Of a stretch of 64,000 nucleotides of DNA, positions 13,370-58,900 are shown one piece after another. The position numbers and the translations under genes were made by a program. Each line of letters opens with the position of its first letter. Within the stretch, counting starts at the first letter, position 1. This stretch comes from Diacronema lutheri (lineage: Eukaryota; Haptophyta; Pavlovophyceae; Pavlovales; Pavlovaceae): the NCBI GenBank assembly GCA_019448385.1, contig JAGTXO010000013.1, positions 186,001 to 250,000 of the forward strand, written 5' to 3'. The notes beneath the pieces are model-generated. The model was not told the origin of the DNA and did not search any database. It was given only the letters and a program-made list of their open reading frames with translations.

Positions 13370-13807
13370 GGCTTGTTCGGCTGGGAATCGACGATGCCGG
13401 TGGCCTCGTACCGCTCGATGGTGGCGCGGACGATCGACTCCGTGAGCGTGTCGGTGGATGTGTGGAGGTCATCCGCGATCCTCACCGCGCTCCTGCCGAG
13501 AAAATAGCCGCCACAGGATGATCTTCATGACCTCGACCGAGAGCCGGTGCCCGCGACCGACGCCGATGATGACGCCGCTCGCGGCGCTGCGGCCGCGCCG
13601 CCTGCACGTGTCGCGGTTATGAGAGCGGGGTTCCCGGGTATGTCAGGAACCCCCACGCGCAGCGGCGACACGCATAGCGCGACACGCACCGCGCCACCTC
13701 CCGCGGGGCCGACGCGACGCGCGCGCGCACCTCTCGCGGCCATTTTCGCTTTTTCGCGCGCGGGTCTCTCCTATTCCTTCGTCCGCGAACTCAGACCCAA
13801 CGGGCAG
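13370..13807 (-). repeat. right terminal inverted repeat of transposon B
   Basis: 438 bp ending CAGACCCAACGGGCAG, then the TA duplication. The passenger sequence begins immediately inside it. The outer end is 11 bp from the first ATG of the SET-domain gene. Confidence 0.9.
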
Positions 13808-13819
13808 TACCCATAGTAT
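13808..13819 (+). repeat. 12-bp direct repeat, right copy
   Basis: Second copy of TACCCATAGTAT (first at 10959-10970). Its first two bases are the TA flank of transposon B and its last two are the first bases of the ATG at 13818. Confidence 0.7.
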
Positions 13820-16800
13820 GAGAAGTAGAACGATGCCGTCACGCACGCCCACCCTGGAGCTGCCGGCGGCGCACGAGCGCGATGAGTGGGAGAGCGACGA
13901 GCTGCTTTTGGTAAGCAATGTGCGCACCTCGCCCACGCGGGCGAACATACCCTTTCTATCGGCATCCGCGCACCCGCCAGCTCGCAAGGGCGCGCGGCCG
14001 AACAGCCCGGCGACGCACGCGCTCCAAGGCGAGCATGCGGGCGGCGCGCACCTCGGCGTACGCGGCGCAGAGGTCGGCGCGGGCGGCGCTTGGCGGCCGC
14101 CCAATGACGTGGCGTCTAACAGTGATGGAGATGCACACCTGCCGTCGAGCGCCGCCGTGCCCGCCATGCCAACCGGAGAGCACGCGCCGGACGAGTGCGT
14201 CGCGGCTGCGGCGCTGGTCGGCCGCGCCCGCCCGGCCACGAGCCGGCTAGCGAGCTCATTCCTGTGCGTGCACATTGACTCGGTCGAGCCCCTTGACCTC
14301 GCCTTTGTCAAATCGATGCTCGCGCGCCTCGCCGATCCTTCGATGGCCGTTGGCGACGACGGGCACGCCGTGAGCGCGCTGCATGCGGCCGTGCTGCGCG
14401 CGCACACGGGCAGGTGTGGCGGCAAGGCGGGCAGGCGTTCGTACGCGGTCGGGTGCGTCCCGGAGCCGGATGAGTCGCGCCGCGACGAGGGCGTGCAGCT
14501 CCTCGAGTGCGTGCTGCGTGCCCCCGGCGGCTACGCGCTGGGCACGCCGGACGTCGCAGAGGGGAGCAACCCGACGTCGTTGGGCCTCGCGTGCATGCTT
14601 GGCAGCGAGTACGCCGCGAGGCTGCTGCTCGAGGCGCGCGCCGATCCCGAGCGCCGCTTTGGCTCCGGCGCGTGGACGCCGCTCCAGACCGCCGCCGAGC
14701 ATGGCCGGCTGTGCATCGTGCGATTGTTGGTGGCTGAGGGTGCGTGCGTGAACACGGTCGACATGAGGGGCACGTCGGCGCTGCACAGGGCAGCGAGCTC
14801 GGACGCCAATGCGTGCGTGCAGGAGCTGGGCGATTTCGGCAATGACGCTGCGCTCGTCCAGCCGCGCGCGTGCGAGCAGCTCCACGCATCGTCGGAGCGC
14901 GCGTGCGCGCTCGACGGCGCGCGCGATGCCGGCGCCGCGGCCGGCGCGGCCACGCGCGCGCTCGCTGGAGCGTGCGCGCGCGTGTGCGATGCGGCCGGCG
15001 CTTCGCCAAGCTGCGCATCGCCAGAGTCCGCGCGGTCGCCGGCGGATGGAGGGCGAGGTGCGAGCGGCACGCGCAAGCGGCCTCTCGACTCGCCCGTGCT
15101 GGCGGAACGCGCCCGCGACGTCGCGCGCAGCAGCTCGATGTCGGCCGGTCGATCGGGCTGCGTGTCATCCGAGGCGGATGACGACTCGCAGGCGTGCTCC
15201 CGTCCGCCGCCCACGCCGCCCCCGCGCCCGCCCGGCGCGCGCAGCGGCCGCACGCGCGCGGAGTGGAGCAGCGCGACGGGGCGGTGGCACAGCTTCGTCC
15301 TGCCAACGGCGAGAACGCCGCTCGCCTCCGCCGGCTTTTACGAGAGCGAGCAGGACGCGGCCGAGGCGGCTCGCTGGCTCGCGGACGTGCTCGACTGCGA
15401 GCTCAGCGGCACTACGGACGTGCTCGGCTGCGAGCTCAGCGGCACTACGGACGTGCTCGGCTGCGAGCTCAGCGGCAGTACGGACGTGCTCGGCTGCGAG
15501 CTCAGCGGCAGTATGGACGTGCTCGATTGCGAGCGCTGCCCCCTCCATCCACCGGCGCACCTCCCGCCGCGCGCACTGCGCGCGGACGTGCCGTCTCGCT
15601 CGGCCGGCTCGCTCGCTCCGCCCACCGCCGCCGAGCTCGCGCGGCTGCGCGACATGTGGCACTACGCGCGGCCGAGCACTTTGGAAAGCGGCGGCGAGAG
15701 CGGTGGCGAGAATGACCGTTTCGTCTGCGCCGTCTGCTTCGACCCGAATTGGGATGAGGAGAACGCGCTCGTCGTGTGCGGCGGCTGCGACGTGGCAGTC
15801 CACCAGCTTTGCTACCACATTCCGCACGTGCCCGACGACGAGTGGCTCTGCGCGCCGTGCGTGGACACGCCATCGCGCACGCGGGCCAGCGCCATCGCGA
15901 GCCGCAGCTGCCGGCTCTGCCCGCAGCCCGGCGGCGCGCTCTGGCGCGTGAGCGGTGAGGACGGCGGCGGGTACGTGCACGTTGCGTGCAACGACTCGGC
16001 GCCCGGCTTCGGCCAGCCCGCGCGCGACGGGAGCGCGGAAGAGGTCGCGCGCCTCGCGCACAGGGAAGTTGCTGGCATGCACGCGTGCGAGCCGTCCGTG
16101 TGCGCGGTGTGCGCCGACCCGATGGGCGCGGTCGTGCCGTGCGGCTTCTGCGATGCGATCGCGCGCACGCGCGCCGGACGCGCGCCGCGGCGCGCGGTCG
16201 TGCATGTCGGCTGCGCGATCGTGCACGGCCTCCGCTGGACGTCGAAACCGCGTGGGAGGGATGGCGGGCACGTCGAGTGGGTGTTCGGCTGTCCGGCGCA
16301 CCAGGACCGGGGCGTGGCACACCTCGTCGACGCGGCGCTGGACGGCGACACGACGCGCGTCGTCGACCTGCTGCGCAACGGCGTGCCGCCGGACGCCGTG
16401 CCGGCGAGCGCGCCGACCTCGCACGCGGGCGCGTTCAGCGCGCTGCGCGCATGCGCCGCGAACCCGCGCGCCGCCCGTTCGAGCCTCGAATGCCTCGAGA
16501 TGCTCATGCACGCGATGGAGGCCGCGCACGCGCCCACGCGCTCGGCGACACGCGTCCACTGGCTCCGCGCGCACGAGGCGGAGGCGCGCGAGCGCGGTCT
16601 GCCGTCCGCGCTTGAGGCGGCGGCCGCAGCAGGCAGGGCCGACGCACTGCTCCTCCTGCTCACGCGCTGCGTGCCCGCCCCTTCCGTGGAGCTGCTGCGC
16701 GCGTGCAGCGCCGCGCTCAAGCGCGCGCGTGACGACGCGCACACCGCGCAGCTGAGCGGGCTGCACGCGTGCGAGCGCGTGCTGCGCGCGTGGGTGCACA

Positions 16801-17597
16801 GCCGCCGCGTCCGCGCACTCGACGCCGGGAGCGAGCTCGCGCCGCTTCTCACCGACGTGCCGTACCGGCCGCTGCAGATTGCGGACATGTCTGGCGGGCG
16901 CGAGCGCTACCCCGTGCCGCTCGTGCTGGGCTCGGATGGCGCGCACGGGACCGACACCGATCTCTTCCGCTCGAGCCTGGCCGAGCTCGCCTACGTGCTG
17001 CGCCCGTTCGTCTCGCACACCAAGCCGGACAGCTTTGGGTGGCCGACGTGCTCCGCACGTGATGCGATGGCCAAGGCTAGCTTTGTGCCTGGCGTGCCGC
17101 TCGGCGCGAGGCTGCGCGTCGCGCCCACGAACGGCCGTGGACTGGGCGTCTTTGCAGACGAGCGCATTGGCGAGGGCACCATCGTGTGCACGTACGCGGG
17201 CGTGCTCGTTACGGCGGAGGAGGCGAACGCCATGGGCGACAACGTCTACTTGATGGATGTCAAAACCGCGTGGACGATCGACGCGCGCCACTTTCGGAAC
17301 GTGGGCGGCTTCATCAACTTTGGCTGCGAGCCAAACGTCAAGCTCAAGTGGCTCAGCGAGGGAGCAAACTGGCAGCTCACCAGCCGCAATTGCATCCCGT
17401 GGCCGGTCTTCGAAGCCTCGAGGACGATCGAGCGCGACGAGGAGCTGTGCTACATCCGCGACGCCGCAACCTTTGGCCGACCGTCGGCGCGCGCGGCGCG
17501 GTCCATGCCGCGTAGCTCGCGCGTCTCACTCGCCGCTACGTCACTCGCCGCCGGCGAGTGCCGTTGCGGCGCTGCGAGGTGCCACGGCACGTATTGA
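13818..17597 (+). CDS. ankyrin-PHD-ePHD-SET domain protein, putative histone methyltransferase
   Basis: A 1,259-residue single-exon frame; ATG 13833 (MPSRTPTLELP) is an alternative start free of the flanking repeat. Ankyrin-like repeats lie at ~250-340 (WTPLQTAAEHGRLCIVRLLV). A TGRWHSFVLP...GFYESEQDAAEAARW block at ~480-520 weakly resembles AP2. An 11-residue tandem repeat follows at ~523-570. The PHD finger is at ~635-685 (CAVCF, CGGCDVAVHQLCY, WLCAPC), and an extended PHD at ~697-830 (CRLCPQPGG, HVACN, CAVCAD, CGFCDA, HVGCA, FGCPAHQ). More ankyrin-like helices precede the SET domain at ~1097-1215 (NGRGLGVFADERIGEG, GGFINFGCEPN, EELCYIRDA) and the post-SET CRCGAARC at the end. PHD-ePHD reads histone tails; SET methylates lysine. 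The usual NHSCxPN is NFGCEPN, so activity is uncertain. Likely nuclear. Confidence 0.85.
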   Translation: MRSRTMPSRTPTLELPAAHERDEWESDELLLVSNVRTSPTRANIPFLSASAHPPARKGARPNSPATHALQGEHAGGAHLGVRGAEVGAGGAWRPPNDVASNSDGDAHLPSSAAVPAMPTGEHAPDECVAAAALVGRARPATSRLASSFLCVHIDSVEPLDLAFVKSMLARLADPSMAVGDDGHAVSALHAAVLRAHTGRCGGKAGRRSYAVGCVPEPDESRRDEGVQLLECVLRAPGGYALGTPDVAEGSNPTSLGLACMLGSEYAARLLLEARADPERRFGSGAWTPLQTAAEHGRLCIVRLLVAEGACVNTVDMRGTSALHRAASSDANACVQELGDFGNDAALVQPRACEQLHASSERACALDGARDAGAAAGAATRALAGACARVCDAAGASPSCASPESARSPADGGRGASGTRKRPLDSPVLAERARDVARSSSMSAGRSGCVSSEADDDSQACSRPPPTPPPRPPGARSGRTRAEWSSATGRWHSFVLPTARTPLASAGFYESEQDAAEAARWLADVLDCELSGTTDVLGCELSGTTDVLGCELSGSTDVLGCELSGSMDVLDCERCPLHPPAHLPPRALRADVPSRSAGSLAPPTAAELARLRDMWHYARPSTLESGGESGGENDRFVCAVCFDPNWDEENALVVCGGCDVAVHQLCYHIPHVPDDEWLCAPCVDTPSRTRASAIASRSCRLCPQPGGALWRVSGEDGGGYVHVACNDSAPGFGQPARDGSAEEVARLAHREVAGMHACEPSVCAVCADPMGAVVPCGFCDAIARTRAGRAPRRAVVHVGCAIVHGLRWTSKPRGRDGGHVEWVFGCPAHQDRGVAHLVDAALDGDTTRVVDLLRNGVPPDAVPASAPTSHAGAFSALRACAANPRAARSSLECLEMLMHAMEAAHAPTRSATRVHWLRAHEAEARERGLPSALEAAAAAGRADALLLLLTRCVPAPSVELLRACSAALKRARDDAHTAQLSGLHACERVLRAWVHSRRVRALDAGSELAPLLTDVPYRPLQIADMSGGRERYPVPLVLGSDGAHGTDTDLFRSSLAELAYVLRPFVSHTKPDSFGWPTCSARDAMAKASFVPGVPLGARLRVAPTNGRGLGVFADERIGEGTIVCTYAGVLVTAEEANAMGDNVYLMDVKTAWTIDARHFRNVGGFINFGCEPNVKLKWLSEGANWQLTSRNCIPWPVFEASRTIERDEELCYIRDAATFGRPSARAARSMPRSSRVSLAATSLAAGECRCGAARCHGTY
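15384..15515 (+). repeat. 33-bp coding tandem repeat in SET gene
   Basis: Four copies of a 33-bp unit encoding DVLGCELSGTT-like 11-mers, with a degenerate fifth ending DVLDCER. The near-identity at DNA level suggests recent slippage; the frame is preserved. It lies between the ankyrin region and the PHD finger. Confidence 0.85.
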
Positions 17598-28223: not shown

Positions 28224-28934
28224 GCGCGCGCGTCAGTGAGAAGGGCGATCAATGAGAAGGGCGGAAGCGCGCTCGGCTGAGGCGGTCGGCCGAAACGAGG
28301 AGGCCGCTAGGCACTCGACGCGCCGCCCCTTGCCCGCCTTCTCACCTCGAGGGACGGCCCCGCCCGCGCCCGTCCGGCTCTCCAAGGTGAAAACCTCGCT
28401 TCGCGTTCCGTGTCCGGGTCGCCCGCACGGGATGGCTCCGGACTCCTCTTTTTCCTTCCTTGATCGTCGCGGCTTCAGCAAGGGCAGGGCGAGGCAGAGC
28501 CTGAGCGGGAAACGCGGCTCGTCCAAGGTGTGAACCACATGCGCGTCGGCGCGCGCGCGCGCGTTTCGCGCGGGCTCGTGGGCGCGGCGCGCCGCGCGGC
28601 ACCGGTGCGCGGCCGGCACGGCCACGCGCGCCCGAGTGCAGCCCTTGCAGGCCGCGCGCGCGTGGCGCCAAGCGGCCCCTCCCCACTGGGCTTCTTGGCC
28701 CTCCCCCTTCGCGCGGCCCCAGCTGCATCCAGTGCAGGGCGCTGCGCTGGGGTGCGGGCGGGCGAGGCGGGTCGCGTGGCCTGCCCGCACGCCTGCTCAC
28801 GCGCGCCGCCGGCTCGTGCGTGCGCCGCCGCGCCCCCCTCCGCCCTCACCAGGCGACCGAGCGGACGCGCGTGGCTCCAGCGCGACTCCGCCGCGCACCG
28901 GGCTCGCGAGCGCTCGTGCGCTTCGGCGGGGCGG
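28224..28934. other. divergent intergenic region before the SNF2 gene
   Basis: Separates the start codons of the zinc-module gene (minus) and the remodeller (plus). The remodeller frame stays open upstream from ~28530, but composition there is Arg/Ala-rich and not protein-like, so I place the start at ATG 28935. The centre (28380-28530) is lower in GC and is the most likely promoter. No repeat or RNA gene was recognised. Confidence 0.5.
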
Positions 28935-29176
28935 ATGGTGAACGAGCGGATCGCGGCCGGGGCGCTCGACACGACGCCAGGCGCGCGCGTCGAGGCCATC
29001 CTCCACGATGAGGCCCTCTCCGGCGCGCGGTACACGGCGGTCGTGCAGCCGAGCTCGGCGGCGGCCAAGGCAGCCGTACACGCCGGCCGCTCCGGCGCCG
29101 GCGCGCGCGACGCCGGCATCGTGCCGGCGGCCGGCGCGAGCGGCCGGAAGTTGACGTTGCGCTTCGACAACCTCGT

Positions 29177-29212
<36 letters not shown>

Positions 29213-32200
29213 CGACGGCGACGACGACGCGCGCGCCAAGCGTGCTGACGCGCGCGGCGGCGTCGGCGAGGCGGAGGCGAGCGCGCTCGTCCAGCGCCAC
29301 GTGCTCTCCGACTGCCGGCCGATTCCACCGCCCACGCCCGCGGGCTTCTTCGATGGGCTCGCGCGCGGCGCGCGGCTCGAGCTGCTCTACGACGATGGCT
29401 GGTGGCCCGTCGAGCTGCTCGAGGCAAGGCCCGCGCCCACGCGCGCGGGCGCGCGCGGAGATGGCGGCGGCGGCCGCAGCGGCAGCAGCGGCGGAGGACG
29501 CGATGGCGCGGCGCAGTACGTCGTCGTCTCTCGCACCTACCACCTCGAGCACACGGTGTCGCAGGCCAAGCTGCGTCCGGCGTGGGAGTGGCGCGCGGAC
29601 ACCGACGCGCGAGCCGACGCATCCTCGATCGGCGGCAGCTGGCGCACCCTCGGGCCGGCGGACGCCGAGCCAGCGCCACCGCAGCCCGCCGCGAAGGGAT
29701 CGCGCGGCGGCAAGGCCGCGGCGGCGCGCGCGCCGCGCGCGGGCGGCGCGCGCGCGCGCGCGGGCGGCGCGGCGACCGAGCCGCGCGCGCGCGCCGGCGC
29801 GGGCGGCAGGAGTGGCGCACGTGCCAAGGGCGCGGCGGGCGCGGATGGCGACGACGAGTCGGCGCGCGGCGAGGCGGCAGATGCGGACGCGGATGGGGAT
29901 GACGCGCACCCTGCCGCCGGCCTGCCGCAGCCGCCCACGCCCGCGTCCGTCGTCCTCGTGCACAACGGCAGCGCGTGGCGCACAGTCGGCGAGCACGCGC
30001 TCGACATGCACGCGCTCGTCGAGAGCGCGCGCGCGGGCGGCGGCGACGGTGACGGTGACGGCGCGCGCGACGAGGACGGCGGCGAGCAGGCGCGGCCGAC
30101 GCGCCCGCTCAACCTGCCGACGGTGAGGGTGCCGTTACGCTGGTCCAAGGGTGGCTGGAAGGTTGGGCACGCGCCGCGCAGGGGCGGCAGCGGCGGCACG
30201 CCGGCGGGCGGCGCGGGTGGCGCGGGCGGCGACGACGGCGGCGACGACGGTGACGGTGGCGAGGCGGGCGACGACGCGCGCGCGGGTGGCAGGGGCGCGC
30301 CGCCCAAGCCGGCCGACGGCGCGTCGATGGCGTCCACCGCCGCGCCTGGCCGCTCGGCGAAGAAGGGCGCGTCGCGCAAGTCGGCAGGCGGCCGTGCGCT
30401 CTCGGCTGCAGCGAAGCGGCTGCCGCCAAACGGCGCGTGCGAGCTGCGCGTCGGTCTCGACGTGGAGGTGGGCCCGGAGGACGATGGCTTTTATGGCGGC
30501 TGGTACGCCGCGACTGTGCTCGCGCTGCGCGACGGCCCGCCCGCCGACGACGAGGACATGGCAGCGCGCGCAGCTGAGGCAGGGGCGGCGCTCGCGAGCT
30601 CGGTGCACGCCGAGCTCGAGGGTGACGGGCGCGCGAAGCTCGCCGACTGCCACGCGCTCGTGCGGTACGCGACGGTGGTCGACGAGGCCGGCGCCGCCGT
30701 GCACGAGTGGCAACCTGCACGCCTCCTCCGCCCCGTACCGCCCGCCACCCCCCTCGCGTTCGCGCCAAACATCAAGGAAGGCGAGCACGTGCAGCTGCGA
30801 CACAGCGACGGCTTTTGGGAGGCGACGGTCGTCGAGGTGTGCGAGAAGGCGGAGCGGCGCGCGCGCGGCGCGCGCGAGATCTCGCAGCCCGGCCGCTTCA
30901 AGCTCGCGCTGTGCCACGGCGGCAAGGGCGCGGAGGTGATGGAGGCGACGGCGCACGAGCTGCGCCCGGCGTGGGCGTGGTGCACCGATCACTGCTGGGC
31001 GATCATCGGCGCGGAGGGGCGGCTGCGCACGGACGCGGAGCTGTCGGCGACGCTCTCCGCCGCGCCCTTCCTGTGCTGCGACGCGGCGGGCGAGTGGCAC
31101 ATCCGGCGCGGCCCGCGCGGCGCCGGGCTCGCGTCCGCGCCCGCCGGCGCGCTGGGCGAAGACGACGATGCGTGGGGAGGCGGCGTCTTCGTGCAGATCA
31201 GCCGCTCGGGCGCGGACTGGCGGCTGAGCGAGCGGCGGACGGGCGGCGACACGCTCGACCCTCGTGAGCTCCTGCGCGAAGGCTGCGCCCTCGAAGTCGA
31301 GGTGCCCGACGAGAGCGCCGCCGCGGCCGCGGAGTCGGCGGCGGCGGGCAGCGGCGGCGGCGGCGGTGGCGGCGCGTCGCACTCGGCGGCGGCGATGCTC
31401 GGCGTGGCCGCCGACCCGTTCATGTGCACCTACCAGCGCTGCCGCCTCGTGAGCATCGCTCTGCGCTCCTCCGCCGAGCCCGCCGCCGGCGCGCGCGGCG
31501 AGGCGGGCGGCGAGGAGGGCGACGACGACGACGATGACGACGACGACGACGACACCGACGAGGCGCAGCTCAAGGCGGTCGTGCGCTTGATGAGCCCGCG
31601 GCGCGCGCCCGACGGCGGCGGCGGCGGCGGCGGCGACGACGCGCGCGACGCCGCCGCCGTTGAGTGGGAGGAGGGCGCGCATAAGCTCGAGTGCGCGATC
31701 CACCGGCTGCGGCCGCTGCCCGCGCCGCCTCTCGCGAACGGCGGCAACGTCGCCTTCCTGCAGCGCGTGCGCGTGGATGGCATGCAGCCCGTCGAGTACC
31801 GCGACCCGGTGACGGGCCAGTGGCGACTCTCCACCATCGTCGGCGTCCGGCGTAACGGCTACCGCCCGCCGGCCGCGCTGCCCGGCGCGTTCACGATCGG
31901 CACGGTGCGCAAGGGGCTCGACGGCCGCGAGTGGGAGGTCGTCCTGCGCGAGGTGAAGGGCGCGAGGCCGTCGTGGACGCCGCGCGCCGAGCCCGACTGG
32001 CGGCCGCCGCGCGCGGGCGACGCCGATGCGCTCTACGCCGTGCGCGCGCCCGGCGCGGGCACGGCGCCGCGCAAGCGCGACGAGGCCGCGGCCGTCGTCG
32101 AGATCGAGCCGAGCGCGATCCGGCCGGCGTTCGCTTGGGACCTGCGCACGTGCGCGCTTGATCTGACGAGCTCGTTCGCAGAGATCGACGCGAAACGCCG

Positions 32201-33891
32201 CGCGGGCGAGGAGCACTGGCGTAAGCGCGCCGGCGCCGACGCCAAGGCGGCGGCCAAGGCGGCGCGCGCCGGCCGCGTTGAGGCGGCGAAGGCGGCGCGC
32301 GCGCACGCGCGCGCGCGCGCCGACGCGCAGCACAAGGCCAAGGCGGCGGCGCGCGAGGCGAAGGGTTCAGTGGACGAGGGGAAGGCGACGCGCGCGGACA
32401 AGCAGCGGCACAAGCTCGACCGCTCGGCGTCCGTCGCCGACAAGCTCAACGCGCGCCGGCTCGCGACCGACGCGGCTGCGCTGCGCGCGCTCGGCATCGG
32501 CTCCGTCTTCGAGACGCTCGTCGGCCCGCCGCTCGACGTGCCCGCGCCCGCGCCGCCCGCGCCGCCGCCCGCCGAAGCCGGCGGCGGCCGCCGCCGCGCG
32601 GGCGGCGCGGCCGCCGCCGTCGATGCCGCCGCCGAGCCCGCTGCCGAGCCCGCTGCCGAGCCCGCTGCCGAGCCCGCGCCGGGCGCGAGCCGGCGCGGCG
32701 CCGCCTTCCATCTCGTCGAGGTGATCGCCTGTCGCGACGACGACCCGTCGGAGGTGACGGTCGTGAGGCGGCTCTCACACGACCCGGCCACGCTGCCCGC
32801 CGGCCATGACGTCAAGGTGGAGAGCGCGGACGCGCTCGGTGTGCTGCACGGCGAGCCGTTCGAGCTGCGCGTGCCCGCGCAGGTGCGTCCGCGCGCGCCG
32901 CCCGTGCCGCCCGACTTTGCGGCGCAGCTCAAGCCGGGCGCGGCCGTCGAGCTGTGGGTGAGCGGCGGCTGGGAGCGGCGAACGCTCGCGCGCCTGCCGC
33001 CCTCGCCGACCACCGTGCCGCGCGGCGCGGCCGTCTGGGCCGTGAAGCGCGCCGCGCGCAGCGCCGAGCGGCGCGCGGCCGAGGGCGTCGGCGGCGCCGG
33101 CGACGGCGACGGAGGCGGCAGGAAGGGCAAGGGCGCGCCGCCATCGTCGAGCAAGGCGAAGGGCGCGAAGGGCGCGCGCGCCACCGGCGCCGACGACGAC
33201 GACGGCGCCGACGGCGCCGACGACGACGAGGAGGAAGGCGAGGGCGGCGACGACGACGGCGAGGGCGGCGGCGACGACGACGACGACGACGGCGAGGACG
33301 GCGCCGACGAGGGCGACGAGCCGAGCGGCGCGGAGCGCGAGGAGCTCGTGCCGCTCGCGCGGCTACGGCCGGGCTGGGAGTGGTCGCGCACGCGCAGGCG
33401 GTGGGTGGGAGCATGGCTGCCCGAGCGGAAGAAGACGCCGCGCGACCTCAAGGCCGCCGAGGAGCTCGCCGTGCTGAGCGCGCTCTTCCCGCCGTCATCA
33501 AAGGTCGAGGTGATGCAGCGCGAGCAGGGCTACGCCGGCTCGTGGTACGCCGGCTCTGTCCTCGCTGTCGAGACGGGCGGCGCGCCGCTGCACGTGCAGT
33601 ACGACGACTTCTTCACGGATGACGCGCAAACCGAGCCGCTCGCCGAGTGGCAGCGCGACAAGCACGTGCGGCCCGCGCCGCCCGCGCGCCCGCCGGCGGA
33701 CTGGACGATCGACTCGCTGCAGCCGGGCGCGCCGCTCGACCTGTGGTACGAGGACGGCTGGTGGGAGGTTGAGCTCACGCACGTGCTGCGCGGCGACGCG
33801 GCCGCGGCCGCGAAGGCCAAGGCGGACGCCGACGCCGCCGCAGACGCCGCCGCCGATGCGGCCGACGAGCGCGCGCCCGCGAGCGCGCCGC

Positions 33892-33922
<31 letters not shown>

Positions 33923-36900
33923 GCGCGTCGACCTCGTGCTCCTCGTCCGGTCGGTGCAGTACGACGTGGAGCACGTCGTCTCAGATCTGGCGCGGCTCAG
34001 GCCGGGCTGGAAGTGGCGGCCGCCGTCTGCAGCGGCGACGGCGAGCATCGCGGCCGCGCTCGCCGGCGACGGCAACGACGCCGCCGCCATCGCGCGCGCA
34101 GCCGTTGACGCGGGCTGGACAATGCGTGCACGGCCGGGCGTGCACGTCGCGCCGGACGGCGCGCTGCTGCCGCGCGAGGGCGAGGGCGCGGCCGAGGGCG
34201 GCGGCGAGGCGAAGCCGGCGGGCGGGAGCGCGCGGCGCGACCACAAGCGCAAGATCTCCATCGGTTCGAACGGCGAGCCGCCCGCCGGCGCGTCGGCGTA
34301 TGCCGTCGGCACGCAGAAGAAGGGGACGGATGGGCGGATGTGGGAGGTGGGCTCGGACGAGAAGCTGCAGAACACGTGGCAGCCCGTCCTCGCGTCGGTG
34401 CAGCGCGGACGGCGCGCGTCGAGCACGCCCGCGCGCTACGCGCTCGGCGCCGGCGGCGGCGCCGGCGGCGGCGACGACGCTGGCGGCTGCGGTGGGATCG
34501 ACGCGGCGATGGCGGCGGCAATCGAGGCGTCGCGCATTGCCGACGGCCTCCCGCCGTCCAAGCGCGCGCGTGGCGAGGGCGGCGGCGAGGCGGACGATGT
34601 TGCACGCGCGCCCGAGCTGCCGCCCGCGACGGCCGTCAAGGTGCACGGCAAGGCGGCGCCCACGCCGCGCCAGCACGCCATTGTGCGCTACCGCGTGCAC
34701 ACGCCGCCGGCCGAGCTGCTCGCGGACATGCGCTCGGTCGGGCTGAGCGTCGACGAGCTGCGCGCACGCGGCCTGCTGCGCGTGAGGGGGCGCTCGCGCT
34801 CGCGCCGCGTCGCGAGCGGCATTGCGCCCGGCGCGGCGACCGCCGCCGCCGAGCCGAGTGCGTCGGAGTCCGGCTCGGAGTCCGGCTCGGACAACGACGG
34901 CGGCGATGAGCAGGCGGCGCACGTCTCGCTCGTCTCGCCGCAGCAGCTCGCGTCGGTGTACGAGGCGGACCAGGCCGCGATGGGCGTGACGCAGAAGCGC
35001 GGGTACGAGGGCCTCGTCGTCGACGCGCTGCTGCGAGCGCTCGGCGAGGGCGCGGTTGGGCCGCACACGCTCATGGTCTTCAACGGCGGGCGGAGGCGGA
35101 TCTGGGCGCGCGCGACGTGCCCGGGCTGCGCGCACCGGCTCGACCTCCTCCTCGTGCCCGTCCTCGACTCGATCCGCTGCCTCATCTGCGGCACGTGGTC
35201 GCTCTCGTGTGCGCCGCGCATGAGCGCGGTCGAGATCGCCGCTGCGGCCGTCGAGGCGGCCGAGCGAGAGGCGGCGGAGGCGGAGCACGCCGTGGCCGCT
35301 CGCGCCGCCGCGGCTGCCGCCGCCGCGCAGCACGAGCTCGCCGCGCGGATGCACGCCGCGGCCGGCGCGCACGCGGCCGCACAGACGGCGGCGGCGCAGG
35401 CGGCGGCGCTCCTGCACGCGCACGGGCAGCACGCGGCCGGCGGCGCGCTCGCGCCCATCGGCGCCGGTGGCGCGCTGCTCGGCGCGGCCTTGGGCGCCGG
35501 CGCGCCGCCCGGCCTCGGCGTCGCGGCCGCACCGCCGCTGCGCGCGCAGCACGCGCTGCCGGCCGCGCTGCCGCACGCGCTTGCCGCGCCGGCGGCCCTT
35601 GCGCCGCCGCTCGCGATGGCCGGCGCGCCGCATCCTGCCGTCGCCGCCGCCGCGCCACCCGCCATGCCGCCGCCCGTCGTGTCCGAAGAGCACGCATCCA
35701 ACCGATACTCGCGCCGCGGCTCGGGCAAGGCGGTCGCAGCATGGCTGATCGCGCGCAGACCGGAGGATCCGCTGCCCGAGCTGCAGCGCTCGAAGAACGA
35801 GGTGCGCGCGCGCGCGCGCGCGCGCGCGCGGCGAGGCCTGCCGCGCGTCGCGCGCGCACGCGCCGCGCGCGCTGCCGCGTCCCTGGCGCGTCGCCCTCCA
35901 CCGTGCCGGACTGCGTGCCGCCTGACCCGCCTTCTCCCCGCCCGGCCCGCCGCCCGTGCGCGCCCCTCTGCTCAGTCCGGGTACAAGGGCGTGCACCGGA
36001 CTGGCAAGAGCAAGTGGCAGTCGCAGATCTACTTCCAAGGCAAGCTTCTCCACTTGGGCGTCTTCGACGAGCCCGTCGAGGCTGCAGTTGCATACCAGAC
36101 CGCACGCAAGCGTGTCCACTGCATCCCACCCGAGCTCGACGCAGGCCTCGCGGCCGCAGGCGCCGCTGCGCACGTCGGCGCGCAGCCGACCGCCGCGGAC
36201 GCCGGCACGCTCGGAGCGCCGCAGCTCGCGCCGGCCGATCCGCGCGGCGCGGGCGCGCTCGCGCTCGCCGGCGCGAACGCGACCGTCTCGGCGCCCGGCG
36301 CCGTGTACCAGGAGCGGCGTGCGAGCGTCGGCCGGCCACCGGGAACGATGGCGCCGCGCGTGAGCGCAGGCGCGCTCGCCGCCGACGCGGCGCGCGCGGC
36401 GAGCGCGGCGGGTGCGGCGGCGGAAGCGGAGGAGGTGCGCGCGTTCGCGCATGAGCTGTTCCGCGCGGAGCGCGTGACGGGCGGCTACCAGGGCGTCTTC
36501 TTCCACTCGGCGCTTGAGTGGGCGCACGGGCCGCAATGGCTCGCGATCGCGCCGGGCGGCACGCAGCTCGGCTACTGCTTCTCGGACAAGGGCGCGGCCG
36601 TGCGCGTGTGGAAGTTTGTGCACGCGGTGCGCCGACGGTACGGCGCGGAGGCGCTCGGCCGTGCGTGGCCGCGCTTCGAGATCCCCGGCGCCGTCGACTT
36701 TGCCGAGATCACGCTCGTGCGCTCCGCCGAGCAGGACGGCGAGATCGCGTCCGCCGTGAGTGAGACGGTGCACTGCCTCGTCGCGCGGATCGAGGAGTGG
36801 GCGGCGGAGACGATGCGCGCGGCGAGCGCGCCGTCGGCGCTGTCGCGGCTGGGCAAGACGCCGGAGCGCGCGCACGACGCGCCGCCGCTCTGCGGCGCGC

Positions 36901-39900
36901 TGCCGCCGCCGCTGCCGCCCCCGCCCGTCCACCAGCCGCTCAAGCTGTTGATCGGCCAGGCCTTTGAGCGGCAGTCGCTCATCGCGCTGCCGGGCGAGGC
37001 GCAGGAGGTGCAGCTCACGTTCGCGCAGCTCGAGCACGTGCTGCACGCCGCGAACGTGCCGCCGAGCGAGATCGAGCGCGTCATCTCGCGCGCGCCGCCC
37101 GCGCACCACGCGCTGCCCGCCGTCGCGGGCGACAAGCGGCCGGCGGCAGCCGACGGCGCGGCCGGCGCGGCGCCGGGCGGCGGCGGCGACGCCAAGCGGC
37201 CGCGCACCGACGGCGGTGGCGCCCTCGTCAAGGCGGAGGGCAGCGCGTTGCCGTTGCCGCCGCCGCCCTCCGCACCACCGCCCGCACCGGCGCCCCAGGC
37301 CGTGTCGGTCGACGTGGATGCGCTGATGAAGCTGACGGGCGGTGCGTACGGCAGTGCAATCTTCACGGCGCTTCGCCCCTTTGTGCCCGTGCGCCCGCAG
37401 CTCCAGCCCGCGCTGCCGCCGGCGGCGCACGCGCACGCGGCGGCGAGCGCGCCAGCGACGCCCTCGCGCGACCGGCAGCACGCCGTCTCGCCGCTCGGCG
37501 CCGGCCGCGCTCCGCTCCACCCGTACCTGCAGACGCTCGGCAACGGCGGCGTCGCGCTGCCCGGCTCGCAGCGGCTGTCCCCATACGGGCTGCAGTTTCG
37601 TCAGATCGAGCAGTACCTGCTCGCGCGGTACGGCGGCTCGATCTCGGCGGGCCGGATCAACACCGCCATCGGCTCGCACGTCAAGACCGGCCGGCTGCTG
37701 CGAGACAAGCGCTTCTACTCGCTCGGCGGCACGCCGCTCGCCTTCCGCATCCGCACGGCCGCGGACGACGCTGCGGACGCGGCGAGGCTGCCAAAGTCGA
37801 AGAAGAGTCAGCGCATGCTTCACGCCCTCGCCGAGAAGCGCAGCCGCCGCCTCGACCTCGACGGCGCGCGCAAGGCGCATAACGAGCTCGTGCGCCACGC
37901 GCTGCGCGAGTCGGAGCTGCGGTGCATGGCGTTCTTGAAGGGCCACCTCGACATGCTCCGCCCATTCCTGCGCGGCGCCAAGCGCGAGACGCTGCGCAGG
38001 CTCGGCTGCGAGGCGGAGATTTTGGGAGAGGAGGCGGTCGACGCGCTCGACGACGACGACGAGCTCGACGAGGACGAGGACGTCGATGTCGTCGCCGACG
38101 GCGACGACGATGATGACGACGCCGACGCCGAGGTGGACGCAGACGCGGACGCAGACGCAGACGGTGGCGAGGAGAGCGAGGACGAGGCGGCCGACGACGA
38201 TGTGGAGGAGGACGCCGATGAGGCTGACGATGTCGGCCCGCCCGCCAGCCGCGTCACGACGCCGTCGCGCGCCGTGCCAAGCTCGGCCGCAAAGCCGCCG
38301 CAGCCGCAGCCGCAGCCGCAGCCGCAGCCGCAGCCGCAGCCGGCCGCGGTGGCCGCCGCTGCCGGTGCGCGCGCGCCGCCGGCCGCCGCCGTGGCCGCGC
38401 CGGCACCGCCGCGGGCTGTAACGCCGCCGCTCGTCGCAGCTACGCCGCCACCGCCAAGCGTGAGCGCACAGCCGACCGCTCCGCCTGCCTCGCCGACAGC
38501 CGCGCCGACTGCCGCGCCGACGGCCGCGCTCATGGACGTCGATGCGCCGGCGCAGTCGGCGCCACCGGCTGCTGACGGCAGCACCGCGCTCAGCGTGTGC
38601 GCGGGCGCGCCCGCCACCGCCGAGTCCGACCTGGCCACGGCGGTCGCGGCGAGCGCGCTTGGCCTCCCGGCGTCGGCGGAGGAGGCGGCGCAGTGGGCGA
38701 GCGCGTTCGGCCAGGTGCCGGACATGCCGTTGGTCGCGGAGGAGATCGCGGGCTTTAAGTGGTGCAAGTGCGCGCACGCGCGCACGGCAGCTCGCCGCGC
38801 CGCCGCGCCGCCGCGCCGCCGCGCCGCCGCACCGCCGCGCCGCCGCGCCGCCGCGCCGCTGACCGACGCGCGCGCGCGCGCGCCGCACGTCGCGCCGCGC
38901 GGCAGGTGCGACCTGCGCGAGCACCAGCTCGCGGGTGTGAACTGGCTGGTGCAATCGTACCGGCGCGGCCTCAACGTGATCCTTGCCGACGAGATGGGCC
39001 TGGGCAAGACGGTGCAGACGATTACCTACTTGGGCTACCTCAAGTTTGTGTGCGGCGTGCACGGGCCGTCGCTCGTCGTCGCGCCGCTTTCGGTGCTCTC
39101 GTCGTGGGTGGCCGAGTTCGCGCGCTGGTGCCCGGCGATGCGCGTCGTGCGGCTGCACACCGCGGACAACAAGGAGCGCGAGCTGCTGCGCACCGAGATG
39201 CTCTCCGACGTGCGCACCTTTGACGTGGTCCTCACGACGTACGAGATGGCAGCGTCGGCGAGCATGCAGTCGATCATCTGCGGGCGGATGAGCTGGCGCT
39301 ACCTCGTGCTCGACGAGGGCCACCGCATCAAGAACGAGCGGACGATTCAATACGAGCGGCTGCGGCACGTGCGCTGCCAGCGCAAGCTGCTGCTGACGGG
39401 CACGCCGCTGCAGAACAACATGCACGAGCTGTGGGCGCTGATGCACTTTCTGCACCCGCAGCTCTTCGCCAACGCCGACGTCTTCGACTCGGCCTTCGAC
39501 CTCAACCGCCAGACCGTTGACGAGGCCATCCTGCACAAGGCGCGCAGCGCAGCGCCGTGTCGCGCCGTGTCGCGCCGTGTCGCGCTACGCGCGCGCGCAC
39601 GCAGGACGGCGCGCGCCGCGGCCGCCGCGGCCGTGGCGAAGGGGCGCTCACGCGTTCGCACGCGCGCCCTCCGCCCCCGCCCCGCCCCGGCCCGCCGTCC
39701 GCGCGCGCGCAGGTGCACGACCTGCTCGGCACGTTTGTGCTCCGGCGCGTCAAGGCGGACGTGTTGCGCTCGCTGCCCAAGAAGACGGAGGTGCGCCTCT
39801 ACGTGCCCCTCTCCAAGACGCAGCAGCAGCTCAGCAAGCTCCTCCTCCTGCAGGACGGCGAGCTGCTCGACCGCATGCGCTCGCGCCAGCAGGACACGAC

Positions 39901-42015
39901 CGGCGCTGCCGGCGCGGCCGGCCCGTCGGGCGTGGACGGCGCAAAGCCTGCCGTCGTCTCGTCCACGCAGGCGAGCCGCGACTGGAATCGGATGCAGTCG
40001 CTGCTCATGTCGCTGCGCAAGTGCTGCAACCACCCGCACCTCTTCCCCGCGATGCACCGCGTCTCCGAGCGGTGCGCCGCGCCGCAGCGCGCGCCGCGCC
40101 GCGCAACCGCCGCGCGCCGCGCGCCCTCCTCCGCCTGCACGCAGCGCGCCCTCCTCCGCCTGCACGCAGCGCGCCCTCCTCCGCCTGCACGCAGCGCGCC
40201 CTCCTCCGCCTGCACGCAGCGCGCCCTCCTCCGCCTGCACGCCGCGCGCCCTCCTCCGCCTGCACGCAGCGCGCCCTCCTCCGCCTGCACGCCGCGCGCC
40301 CTCCTCCGCCTGCACGCAGCGCGCCCTCCTCCGCCTGCACGCAGTAGCGCGCGGCGCTCACGAGCGGCGCGGAGGTCGCGCGGCGCGTGCAGGCTTGGCG
40401 AGACGCTCGCGACGGCATCGGGCAAGCTCGCAATCCTCGACAGGCTACTGCGCTCTCTCTTTGCGGGTGGCCATCGTGTTGTCCTCTTCTCCTTCTTCAC
40501 GAGCATGCTTGACATTCTCGAGAGCTACTTCACCGAACGGCAGATCCCGTGCGCGCGGCGCGGCGGGCGGGCGGCAGGGGCGTCGCGCGGTGCGAGGCGG
40601 CACGTGCGATGGGGTCGGCAGACGGCCGCGGCGCGGCTCGCGGCAGCGCCCGACGTCGCAGCGCGCCGACGCTCGCTCGCCCGCCGCGCCCGTCGCGCCG
40701 CGCGCGCAGGTACGTTCGCCTCGACGGCTCGACCAATCCGGCACAGCGCTCGCAGAACATCGACCAGTTCAACGAGGCCGACTCTGAGTTGCGCCTCTTC
40801 CTCTGCTCGACGCGCGCAGGTGATCGCGCGCGCGGCCGTCGCCGCGCGCCGCGCCGCATCGCGCGGCGCGGCGCGGCGCACGGCGACGGCGACGGCGCGG
40901 CGCCCGTCGAGCGGCGGCTCGCGTCCGCTGCGGCGATGCGCGCGCATTCAAACGCGGCGATGCGCGCGCTGCCCCGCCGCCGCGCGCAGGCGGCCTCGGG
41001 ATCAACTTGACGTCGGCTGACACGGTCGTGCTCTATGACTCGGATTTTAATCCGCAGGTGGACATCCAAGCGCAGGACCGCGTGCACCGCATCGGGCAGA
41101 CCAAGCCCGTGCGCATCTTCCGCCTCGTCACGCGCGGCACCGTCGAGGAGCGGATCGTCTCGCGCGCCTCGCAGAAGCTCTACCTCGAGCGAATGGTCGT
41201 GGGCGGGCGCGGGGGCGCCGCGCAGACGGAGCGCGAGCGGAAGACGGAGGACACGGCCGACGAGGTCCTTTCGCTCGGCGTCTCGCGCTCGGAGGTGCGC
41301 CGCGCGGCGCGCGACGGCCGCGTGGCAGAGCGCGCGGGCCGCGGCGAGCTGCGCGCCGCGAGCCGCGCCGCGCCGCGCCGCGCCGCGCCCCGCCGCCGCC
41401 GTGCCCGCCGCGCCGCCGCCGCGCCGACGCACGCCGCGGCGCGCCACGACGCACCGCCGTTCGGGCCGCGGCCTCCGTGCGCGCGCTCTGCGCCAGGTGC
41501 TCGCGATGCTCGCCTTCTCGATGTCGGGCGCTCTCGACGGCAGTTCGCTCTCGACGGCTGACGTCACCGACGCGATGATCGACGAGGTGCTCGCGCAGTC
41601 GCACGGCTGCATCGACGAGCAGCAGCTCGAGCAGGTGACGATCGGCGTGGGCGGGATCATGCCGATGGCGGCGGGGGGCGAGCGGCCTGTGCTGCCCGAG
41701 ATCGACGCCGCCGGGCTGCACGCCGGGATCGACCCGGCGGTGCTCGAGGAGCTGCGCGCGTTCAACGAGGAGGAGGACGGCGAGGACGGTGATGCGGACG
41801 CGCGCGCGGCGGCTGCGCTGCTCGAGGAGGAGGAGATGCTTGCCGCGGCGGGCGGTGGCCGCTCCAAGCGCAAGCGCACGTCGCGCTTCATCGAGGTCGA
41901 CGGCTTCATGGTGCTCAAGCTGAACGACTACACGCTCGAGGACGGCGAGCCGTCCGTCTTTGGCACGGAGCTATCGCTCACCAAGCCCAAGCCGCGGCAC
42001 TCGGGCAGGCTCTGA
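28935..42015 (+). CDS. giant ISWI-type SNF2 chromatin remodeller with Agenet/Tudor-like array and AP2 domain
   Basis: Eight exons (28935-35801, 35976-38767, 38906-39539, 39713-40071, 40393-40554, 40710-40819, 40990-41294, 41497-42015) give ~3,915 residues in one frame. Residues ~140-1700 hold about eight Agenet/Tudor-like modules ([45 protein letters not shown], each with a following LRPxWxW). A four-Cys ribbon (CPGCAH ... CLICGTW) is at ~2065 and an AP2 domain ([19 protein letters not shown]) at ~2290. Then come a helical HSA-like block and an acidic run. The motor begins at ~3220: [66 protein letters not shown]. Sequence is closest to ISWI. It slides nucleosomes with ATP; the front half probably reads histone marks or DNA. 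Exon 3-4 intron is GC-AG. Confidence 0.88.
38300..38341 (+). repeat. (CAGCCG)n coding repeat
   Basis: About seven units encoding alternating Pro-Gln in the low-complexity linker between the acidic run and the ATPase of the remodeller. Confidence 0.9.
40119..40344 (+). repeat. nine-copy 25-bp minisatellite resembling repeated 3' splice sites
   Basis: Nine tandem copies of a 25-bp unit (CGCGCCCTCCTCCGCCTGCA plus CGCAG) within the 321-bp intron 40072-40392 of the remodeller. Each unit is a pyrimidine-rich tract; seven of nine end in CAG and two in CCG. The acceptor that keeps the frame is the separate GTGCAG at 40387-40392, downstream of the array. Confidence 0.92.
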
Positions 42016-55922: not shown

Positions 55923-58900
55923 ATGCTGCAGCGGATCGGGTGAGCGGCCGGCAGCGGAAAGACGCGCGCGCCCACCCGCGCGGCCCGCTGCCTCACCGTG
56001 AGCCGCGCGCGCCGCCCGCGCGCCGCGCCTCTTCCCGCCCGCCTTCGCGCGCACCCACCGTCGCACAGCGCCGCACCGGCGCGCCGGGCCGCCTTGCGCG
56101 CGCCCGCGCTGCGCGGCGCGACGGCGCTCGCACGCCGCGGCGTGTCTGACTTCGCGAAGGCAGTCCACGAGATCACGGCGGAGCGCGAGAAGCTCAAGAT
56201 CGTGCCGCCCCCGCTCGACGCCAAGCTGACGGGTATGCTCGTCGAGCTCCTCAAGAAGCCGCCGGCGGACGAGGCGGACTTTCTGCTCGAACAGCTCACC
56301 AACCGCGTGCCGCCCGGCGTCGACGAGGCGGCATACGTGAAGGCATCCTTCTTGACGGCGCTTGTCAAGGGTGAGACGAGCTCGCCGCTCGTCACCAAGC
56401 AGCGCGCCGTCGAGCTGCTCGGCACGATGCAGGGCGGCTACAATGTCGACACGCTCGTCGGCGCGCTCGACGACCCGCAGGTGGCCGAGACGGCCGCCGC
56501 GCAGCTCAAGAAGACGCTGCTCGTGTTCGAGGCGTTCTACGACGTGGAGGAGAAGGCGAAGAAGGGCAACACGCACGCCAAGGCCGTCCTCCAGTCCTGG
56601 GCCGATGCCGAGTGGTTCACGTCGCGCCCAAAGGTTGCGGAGAAGATGACCGTCACCGTTTTCAAAGTGCCCGGCGAGACGAACACCGACGACCTGTCGC
56701 CCGCGCCGGACGCGTGGTCGCGGCCGGACATCCCGCTGCACGCGCTCGCCATGCTCAAGAACCCGCGCGAGGGCGTGCCCACCGACGTGCCCGCCGCCAT
56801 CGACGAGCTCAAGCGCAAGGGCCACCCGCTCGCGTACGTCGGCGACGTCGTCGGCACCGGCTCGTCGCGCAAGTCTGCGACCAACTCGGTGCTCTGGTGC
56901 GCGCGCGCGCACGCGCGCCGGTCGTGCGCCGCGCGCGCACGCGGCGCCGCCCGCTCCGCCGCCCACCGACCGCCGACCGTTACCCGCCGACCGTTACCCG
57001 CCGACCGTTACCCGCCGACCGCGCGGCGCCCTTGTGCGGCGCGCTCGGCCGCGACCGCGCGCGTGCTCGCGCGCAGGTACATGGGCGACGACATCCCGTA
57101 CGTGCCGAACAAGCGCGGCGGCGGCGTGTGCATCGGCGGCAAGATCGCGCCCATCTTCTACAACACGATGGAGGACTCTGGCGCGCTGCCCCTTGAGTTT
57201 GACGTGAGCTGCGTCGAGATGGGCGACGTGATCGACATCCACCCGTACGAGGGCAAGGTCATCAAGGGCGGCAAGCAGGTGGCGACGTTTGAGCTCAAGT
57301 CGCACGTGCTCCTTGACGAGGTGCAGGCGGGCGGGCGCATTCCGCTCATCATCGGCCGGCAGGTCACCAAGCGCGCGCGCGATGCGCTCGGCCTCGGCCC
57401 GAGCGCCGTCTTCCGGCTGCCCACGGACGCGGCGCCGGCTGCGGCGGGCTACACGCTCGCGCAGAAGATGGTGGGCAAGGCGTGCGGCGTGGCGGGTGTG
57501 CTGCCCGGGCAGTACTGCGAGCCGCTCATGACGACCGTCGGCTCGCAGGACACGACCGGCCCGATGACGCGCGACGAGCTCAAGGACCTCGCCTGCCTCG
57601 GCTTCCTCGCCGACCTGACGATGCAGTCCTTCTGCCACACGGCGGCGTACCCCAAGCCCGTCGACGTGGTCACGCACCACACGCTGCCCGACTTCATCAT
57701 GAGCCGCGGCGGCGTCTCGCTCCGGCCGGGCGACGGCATCATCCACACGTGGCTCAACCGCATGCTCGTGCCCGACACCGTCGGCACGGGCGGCGACTCG
57801 CACACGCGCTTCCCGATTGGCATCTCGTTCCCCGCGGGCTCGGGCCTCGTCGCCTTCGCGGCCGCGACGGGCCTGATGCCGCTTGACATGCCCGAGTCGG
57901 TGCTTGTCCGCTTCACCGGTACGATGCAGCCGGGCGTGACGCTGCGTGACCTCGTGCATGCCATCCCGTATGTGGCCATCCAGCGCGGCCTGCTCACCGT
58001 CGAGAAGAAGGGTAAGAAGAACGTCTTCTCGGGGCGGATCCTCGAGATCGAGGGCCTCGAGCACCTCAAGTGCGAGCAGGCCTTCGAGCTGAGCGACGCG
58101 TCCGCCGAGCGCTCCGCCGCGGGCTGCACGATCAAGCTCGCCAAGGTGCGGCGGCACAGCGCCGCGCGTGGCTCGCGTGGCGCGACCGCGCCGCCAACGC
58201 GCGCTCGCGCTGTGCGCGCTCACGTTGGCTCGCGCGCGCGCGCGGCGGGCGCACCCGTCCGGTGCAGGAGCCCGTGATCGAGTACCTGCGCAGCAACGTG
58301 ACGATGCTCAAATGGATGATCGCAGAGGGTGCGCACGCGCGCTGCTGCCGCCCCCGCGCGCCTGCGCGGGACGAGGCGCGCGCGCGCGCGCCGCGCCGCG
58401 TCACGTCGTGCGCGCTCGCGCCGCGCGGCGCGCTTCCGTCGCCTCGCGCGCTCCTCAGGCTACGGCGAGCGGCGGACCCTCGAGCGGCGGATTGGCCGCA
58501 TGGAGGAGTGGCTCGCCAAGCCGGTGCTCATGGAGGCGGACAAGGCGGCGACGTACGCCGCCACGATCGAGATCAACATGGACGAGATCAAGGAGCCGAT
58601 CCTGTGCGCGCCCAACGACCCGGACGACGCGCGCCTCCTCTCTGACGTCGCCGGCGACAAGGTGGACGAGGTCTTCATCGGCAGCTGCATGACCAACATT
58701 GGCCACTTCCGCGCGGCGGGCAAGCTGCTCGCAAAGCACGATGGCCAGCTCCCCGCAAAGCTGTGGGTCGCGCCGCCGACCAAGATGGACGCTGCGCAGC
58801 TCACCGCCGAGGGCTATTACTCGACCTACGGCAAGGTGGGCGCGCGCACCGAGATGCCCGGCTGCTCGCTGTGCATGGGCAACCAGGCGCGCGTCAACGA

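Follow-up and report, generated by a model that had tools for sequence, protein, structure and literature searches.

A predicted giant protein of the haptophyte Diacronema lutheri combines a Snf2-family motor with an N-terminal front end of tandem Agenet pairs and an AP2 domain

A 64,000-nucleotide stretch of the Diacronema lutheri genome (GenBank assembly GCA_019448385.1, contig JAGTXO010000013.1, positions 186,001 to 250,000 of the forward strand; hereafter the window, numbered from its first letter) carries at 28935..42015 (+) a gene model in which a series of tandem Agenet pairs and an AP2 domain precede a Snf2-family ATPase motor that is not followed by HAND-SANT-SLIDE. At the level of sequence this architecture of Agenet pairs, AP2 domain and Snf2 motor is confirmed as real, and its arrangement in one predicted chain is supported. 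Targeting of a remodeller is commonly the task of separate reader subunits, or of one or two reader domains that the enzyme itself carries. We propose that a single gene encodes a single giant chromatin remodeller, built of Agenet pairs, AP2 and a Snf2 motor and guided to chromatin methylated at lysine 9 of histone H3 (H3K9), and give this proposal an even chance of being correct. We infer a single transcript made into one chain, specificity for a histone mark (H3K9 methylation) and for DNA, a nucleosome-sliding activity and a role in heterochromatin.

The spliced model consists of eight exons on the + strand (28935-35801, 35976-38767, 38906-39539, 39713-40071, 40393-40548, 40710-40819, 40990-41294 and 41497-42015) and encodes 3,913 amino acids with one terminal stop, a TGA at 42013-42015, in agreement with the original prediction of a protein of ~3,900 residues. 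Six of the seven introns (174, 138, 173, 321, 161, 170 and 202 bp) have GT-AG borders and one, at 39540-39712, has GC-AG borders. Splice sites were picked with homology in view; because four of the seven lengths are not multiples of three, the restored frame is informative. Alignments to SNF2H and ISW1 from a PDB search carry on past both borders of introns 2 to 6, and intron 1 (35802-35975) lies at the N-terminal edge of the AP2 match, where the score of the phage protein family phrog_99 rose from 49.2 to 54.5 bits once exon 1 residues were added across the intron. These homology checks cover introns 1 to 6, intron 7 (41295-41496) lying outside them. A stop or promoter near 35.8 or 38.8 kb had been named as a sign that would speak against one gene. 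Both positions proved to be introns (35802-35975 and 38768-38905), the second of them within a stretch that aligns to ISWI, and exon 2 alone spans, without a stop, from the AP2 domain to FKWCK, which aligns with VKWGK of SNF2H. A scan of 35-39 kb for bacterial promoters and terminators, a type of scan unsuited to a eukaryote, returned nothing above chance, and Rfam had no matches within the window. Intron 4 (40072-40392) is mostly a 25-bp minisatellite (40107-40344, 9.6 copies, 96% match), and the intron also holds seven copies of CACGCAG, a sequence similar to a 3′ splice site.

GC content is 72.2% across the window and 73.25% for the D. lutheri genome (PMC8379373). An open reading frame of 4,107 codons without a stop runs from 28464 to 40787 (+). 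High GC makes long open frames cheap, as illustrated by an antisense frame at 33981-39584 (-) that is open across 1,867 codons, and codon statistics were therefore used as separate evidence. The simplest reading of the antisense frame is that it arises as a side effect of high GC at third codon positions in the sense gene. Codon log-odds were trained on four other open reading frames of the window against the two other frames of each, and were computed for the three + strand frames in 240-bp segments of exons 1 and 2, with the exon ends 35655-35801 and 38616-38767 falling outside the segments. The gene's frame was the best of the three in 39 of 39 segments. The second codon position of the gene was also the GC minimum in 70 of 71 segments of 300 bp (28950 to 39450), with the sole exception at 29550; the contrast between codon positions was small (<=0.12) at 29550, 30150, 35700, 38250 and 38400. 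The open frame, the codon signal and a consistent splice model support the original prediction of one long chain that carries both front end and motor.

In the front end we recognise what look like five tandem Agenet pairs, arranged in series, three of them well kept. Pfam reported its Agenet model (PF05641) in three stretches (E 1e-20). Ten modules were positioned by eye as five pairs (A1-B1 to A5-B5), and each was scored with a leave-one-out profile against 1,000 composition shuffles. Seven of the ten (A1, A2, A5, B1, B2, B4 and B5) passed, with 0-4 shuffles scoring as high, and B3 was borderline (15 shuffles as high). All pairs lie on the + strand: pair 1 at 28971..29597 (A1 28971-29342, B1 29346-29597; no shuffle as high for either module), pair 2 at 30432..31004 (A2 4 shuffles, B2 none), a possible degenerate pair 3 at 31260..32162, pair 4 at 32490..33410, in which B4 is supported (no shuffle as high), and pair 5 at 33477..34022 (none for A5 or B5). 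The signature [LI]RP[AG][WF]xW, which was defined after the sequence had been inspected, is found exactly five times in the protein and closes each pair once, pair 3 with IRPAFAW. About eight Agenet/Tudor-like modules had been predicted; ten are placed here, two of which fail the shuffles, as discussed below.

Structure prediction, proposed earlier as a check on each repeated module, was run for pair 5. The AlphaFold2 model (predicted local distance difference test, pLDDT, 79; predicted template modelling score, pTM, 0.71) has the Agenet-pair fold with five strands per half. A Foldseek comparison of this model with the PDB gave 327 matches at E<=10; among the 50 listed, all 14 chains at E<=0.001 were the plant tandem Agenets ADCP1, AGDP1 and AGDP3, several of them with an H3K9me peptide. 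When a profile of the five pairs was searched against 177,635 distinct PDB sequences, six were found at E<=1 and all six were plant tandem Agenets of the AGDP/ADCP type (best E 4.8e-7; best single stretch E 1.4e-4). As judged by profile and predicted fold, the Agenets belong to the tandem AGDP1/ADCP1 kind, a sharper naming than Agenet/Tudor-like.

According to PMC6208443, the H3K9me2 cage of AGDP1 comprises Y122, W127 and F144, E45 and E89 hold H3K4, D124 contacts H3R2, and F48, Y53 and L77 contact H3A7. Y301, W306 and F323 form the cage of ADCP1 pair 3/4, and for each of the ADCP1 pairs binding was lost when Tyr and Trp were mutated together (PMC6318295). Contacts were mapped gap-free from chosen anchors at seven AGDP1 positions (E45, F48, Y53, E89, Y122, D124 and W127). 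Pair 5 is identical at six of the seven mapped positions (E45, Y53, E89, Y122, D124 and W127), with F48 replaced by Tyr. Pair 2 reads D, F, Y, E, H, D, W and so keeps five of seven (F48, Y53, E89, D124 and W127), the cage residue Tyr122 being His, and pair 1 reads D, L, Y, Q, Y, D, W, keeping four of seven, with Y122, D124 and W127 in B1. Across the array, Y122 and W127 are kept together in two of the five pairs (1 and 5) and E89 in three (2, 4 and 5), and the E45 position holds Glu in pair 5 and Asp in pairs 1 and 2. Because the Agenets appear to be of the tandem AGDP1/ADCP1 kind, our best guess of the mark read is methylated H3K9 together with unmethylated H3K4. Pair 5 is a good candidate reader of this combination; pairs 1 and 2 are possible readers, and pairs 3 and 4 are unlikely ones.

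The AP2 domain (35787..36122, +) was predicted ahead of the motor, and matches to WRI1 (E 2.7e-5) and TEM1 (E 3.4e-4) in the PDB and to phrog_99, a family of phage HNH endonucleases, in PHROGs (E 3e-14, with residues from both exons) substantiate it. We take the phrog_99 endonucleases to carry AP2 domains themselves. Upstream, at 35097..35219 (+), is a possible four-Cys zinc ribbon recognised by sequence pattern: CPGC and CLIC, whose starts are 20 residues apart, are present as had been described, while the Pfam scan of the ribbon gave no match. The front end is joined to the motor by a linker (38040..38717, +) that is acidic and then rich in Pro, Gln and Ala; its acidic part, to ~38.25 kb, is clearly coding in the gene's frame.

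The motor (38754..41207, +; exons 2 to 7) matched the Pfam models SNF2-rel (E 1.8e-73) and Helicase_C (E 3e-24), and its helicase motifs are intact. In the PDB it scored 444 bits to SNF2H, 416 to ISW1, 395 to DDM1, 381 to HELLS, 361 to CHD1, 360 to ALC1, 357 to INO80 and 348 to STH1. As a yardstick, the SNF2H core scored 710 bits to ISW1, within the ISWI subfamily, and 482 to SNF2, 476 to HELLS, 443 to DDM1 and 437 to CHD1; a score of 444 to SNF2H therefore places the motor at a between-subfamily distance from ISWI. The motor is 49% identical to SNF2H, 45-46% to each of three further ISWIs and 44-46% to Lsh/HELLS/DDM1, against 67.5% between human SNF2H and yeast ISW1 and 68.6% between SNF2H and plant CHR11, the sequence of the latter being presumed correct. 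Exon 3 of the motor also matched nine prokaryote Snf2 helicase models of NCBIfam, all far below their cut-offs, and NCBIfam yielded no other noteworthy match.

A phylogeny of the ATPase, suggested with the original prediction, was run on nine motors and was divided in its outcome. The query has a long end branch (1.99). It groups with ISWI and Lsh against CHD1 and SNF2 with support of 82/90, below the tool's star level; the best tree makes it sister to Lsh (69/55, not significant), and a constrained clade of the motor with ISWI was not rejected in the approximately unbiased test (p-AU 0.225). The motor shares six of 22 ISWI-only and three of 30 Lsh-only columns. With SNF2 as outgroup it has 8 of 29 ISWI-only columns (CHD1, 7 of 28), and with CHD1 as outgroup 11 of 35 (SNF2, 13 of 33), so that its share is about that of CHD1 or SNF2 and there is no ISWI-specific excess. 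The label ISWI-type was thus too strong, and we soften it to an Snf2 motor in the neighbourhood of ISWI and Lsh.

The C-terminal tail (41208..42015, +), which includes intron 7, was correctly described as devoid of an evident HAND-SANT-SLIDE. The Pfam scan reported no HAND or SLIDE model, and a search of the tail against the PDB at E<=10 returned no ISWI chain, its four matches being to one bacterial protein at E 0.29 or worse. Neither RHRK, the basic AutoN motif that lies ahead of the motor, nor the shorter RHR occurs in the 3,913 residues; RHRK is present in many, not all, ISWIs (PMC5305211).

Several observations weigh against a guided, single-chain remodeller. Modules A3 and A4 fail the shuffle test (999 and 1,000 of 1,000 shuffles as high), which leaves both unsupported. 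Pair 3 is degenerate, with Leu at the E89 position, and pair 4 has V, G and E at Y122, D124 and W127, so that its cage positions are lost. In every pair the contact mapping excludes F144, the third cage residue, and E149; it also excludes contacts made by the first module in pairs 3 and 4 and by the second module in pair 3. The input alignment for the pair 5 model consisted of the five internal repeats only. An AP2 domain went unreported in the Pfam scans, and the family it matches best, one of phage HNH endonucleases, does not imply sequence specificity. Finally, the linker contains a segment (38376-38615) in which the codon log-odds are marginal, at +0.04 nats per codon.

That segment, the weakest coding signal of the gene, is where two adjacent genes would have to meet: an Agenet-AP2 reader and a separate Snf2 ATPase beginning in the linker at ~38.4-38.6 kb. 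Position-specific GC is flat over 38250-38699, an in-frame ATG stands at 38532, and short gaps between genes do occur here (202 bp lie between the stop of this gene and the earliest ATG in the frame that follows). We nevertheless regard two genes as very unlikely. The front-end frame is stop-free until 40787, so that an earlier end needs an unseen splice to another frame; the motor would have to share the frame of the front end by chance; and the acidic part of the linker is clearly coding in that frame. The motor could also belong to a fast-evolving true ISWI orthologue that has shed HAND-SANT-SLIDE and acquired its front end anew, which we consider doubtful. SNF2H is its top PDB match (444 bits versus 395 for DDM1), the constrained ISWI clade is not rejected, and a divergent ISWI-related precedent exists: PfSnf2L shows only 30% homology with human SNF2L, being relatively conserved in the ATPase core and poorly so elsewhere (PMC11946908). 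Against this, the best tree places the motor with Lsh, albeit without significance, and the ISWI-only columns show no excess. A high ISWI score is also found elsewhere, as DDM1 scores 464 bits with ISW1 versus 495 with its orthologue HELLS, and RHRK is absent, though some ISWIs also do without it (PMC5305211).

The question of what the array binds is distinct from that of the motor's ancestry. Among other Tudor relatives the ligands include different histone marks, RNA and proteins, and it is quite conceivable, though we do not favour it, that the Agenets form a scaffold or read a mark other than H3K9 methylation. The two cage residues Y122 and W127 occur together in only two pairs, long acidic and Gly/Ala-rich inserts interrupt the Agenet loops, and Foldseek matches at E ~0.007 and weaker include SETDB1, FMRP, SGF29, UHRF1 and 53BP1. 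On the other side, pair 5 retains two AGDP1 cage residues as well as the H3K4 pocket (E45 and E89), and every PDB sequence found by the five-pair profile belongs to the AGDP/ADCP kind. A more ambitious version, in which one polypeptide unites the equivalents of an H3K9me reader (ADCP1/AGDP1) and a heterochromatin remodeller (DDM1), which in land plants are separate proteins, AP2 adds DNA-sequence addressing, and the motor forms a lineage-specific subfamily outside ISWI and Lsh, seems to us improbable as a whole.

If the gene does encode a single remodeller guided to H3K9-methylated chromatin, its AGDP1/ADCP1-type pairs would dock onto H3 tails, with a preference of pair 5, and perhaps of pairs 1 and 2, for H3K9 methylation with unmethylated H3K4. 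AP2 would provide an extra DNA contact, possibly a sequence-preferring one. Beyond the long acidic and Pro/Gln-rich tether, the Snf2 motor of the ISWI/Lsh neighbourhood would translocate on a nucleosome held by the front end, which may thus supply both recruitment and substrate grip, roles that ISWI obtains from HAND-SANT-SLIDE. Histone-tail readers, a DNA-binding domain and an ATPase, usually separate proteins in other organisms, would here be joined, and five Agenet pairs plus AP2 ahead of a motor would, if true, represent an extreme of built-in targeting. How a remodeller without HAND-SANT-SLIDE grips the nucleosome could be tested on this protein as well. A haptophyte origin would extend tandem Agenet pairs of the AGDP/ADCP type beyond plants; ADCP1 is termed plant-specific in PMC6318295.

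Three other candidate features within the gene were considered and rejected. A second AP2 domain at GGYQGVFF had no family match (BLASTP to the first AP2, E 0.21). For a winged-helix or linker-histone-like domain at 37521-38033, an AlphaFold2 model made with no alignment contained helices only (pLDDT 56, pTM 0.26) and the PDB sequence search gave one chance match (E 1.8). A ppHSA motif before the motor scored 3.8 bits with only nine positions aligned, and 63 of 2,000 shuffles of the region scored as high; the best tile for this profile, made from eight motifs, in the entire protein is the one just ahead of the motor. A short motif is present in two copies at ~31890-31980 and 34299-34390 (+), from residues 986 and 1789; against PHROGs the first copy had one match (E 0.24) and the second none. 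The segment 34497-34550 (+) resembles a ubiquitin-interacting motif, and Pfam reported none. Elsewhere in the window, 13623-17597 (+) encodes another chromatin protein, combining ankyrin repeats and PHD fingers with a SET domain and a weak HC5HC2H PHD-like match, and 55944-58277 (+) encodes an AcnB-type aconitase (Aconitase_2_N E 1.2e-88, Aconitase_B_N E 1e-60), a form of the enzyme known from bacteria, here in a eukaryotic window.

In the open-licence literature no paper was found that describes, in its title or the start of its abstract, an Agenet/AP2-fused Snf2 remodeller, from a haptophyte or any other organism, which is weak evidence of absence. Searches for homologues of exon 1, of exon 2 and of the motor core found none in collections of viral or prokaryote DNA, which are silent on haptophytes; a query of the motor with the region before it hit five loci in viral contigs, with best segments 24-38% identical, which is uninformative.

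Compared with known systems, the motor is closest by PDB score to ISWI (SNF2H and ISW1), although it differs in its identity of 45-49% (68-69% for the two ISWI pairs compared) and in lacking HAND-SANT-SLIDE and RHRK. It resembles Lsh/HELLS/DDM1 in its unsupported sister position in the best tree and its similar level of identity, but shares just three of 30 Lsh-only columns; we know of no Lsh protein with an Agenet and AP2 front end. The front end resembles ADCP1, AGDP1 and AGDP3 in its serial tandem Agenet pairs, in the pair fold of the pair 5 model, in the profile match and in the contact residues of pair 5. ADCP1 and AGDP1 are H3K9me2 readers with three pairs each (PMC6318295, PMC6208443), whereas five pairs are fused here to an AP2 domain and an ATPase. 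The gain of a Royal-Family reader by an algal Snf2 enzyme in a lineage-specific manner has a parallel in SNF2 proteins of Chlamydomonas and Volvox, where the reader is PWWP (PMC3457860) rather than five Agenet pairs with AP2, and the D. lutheri protein is most likely a novel member among such reader-fused Snf2 enzymes.

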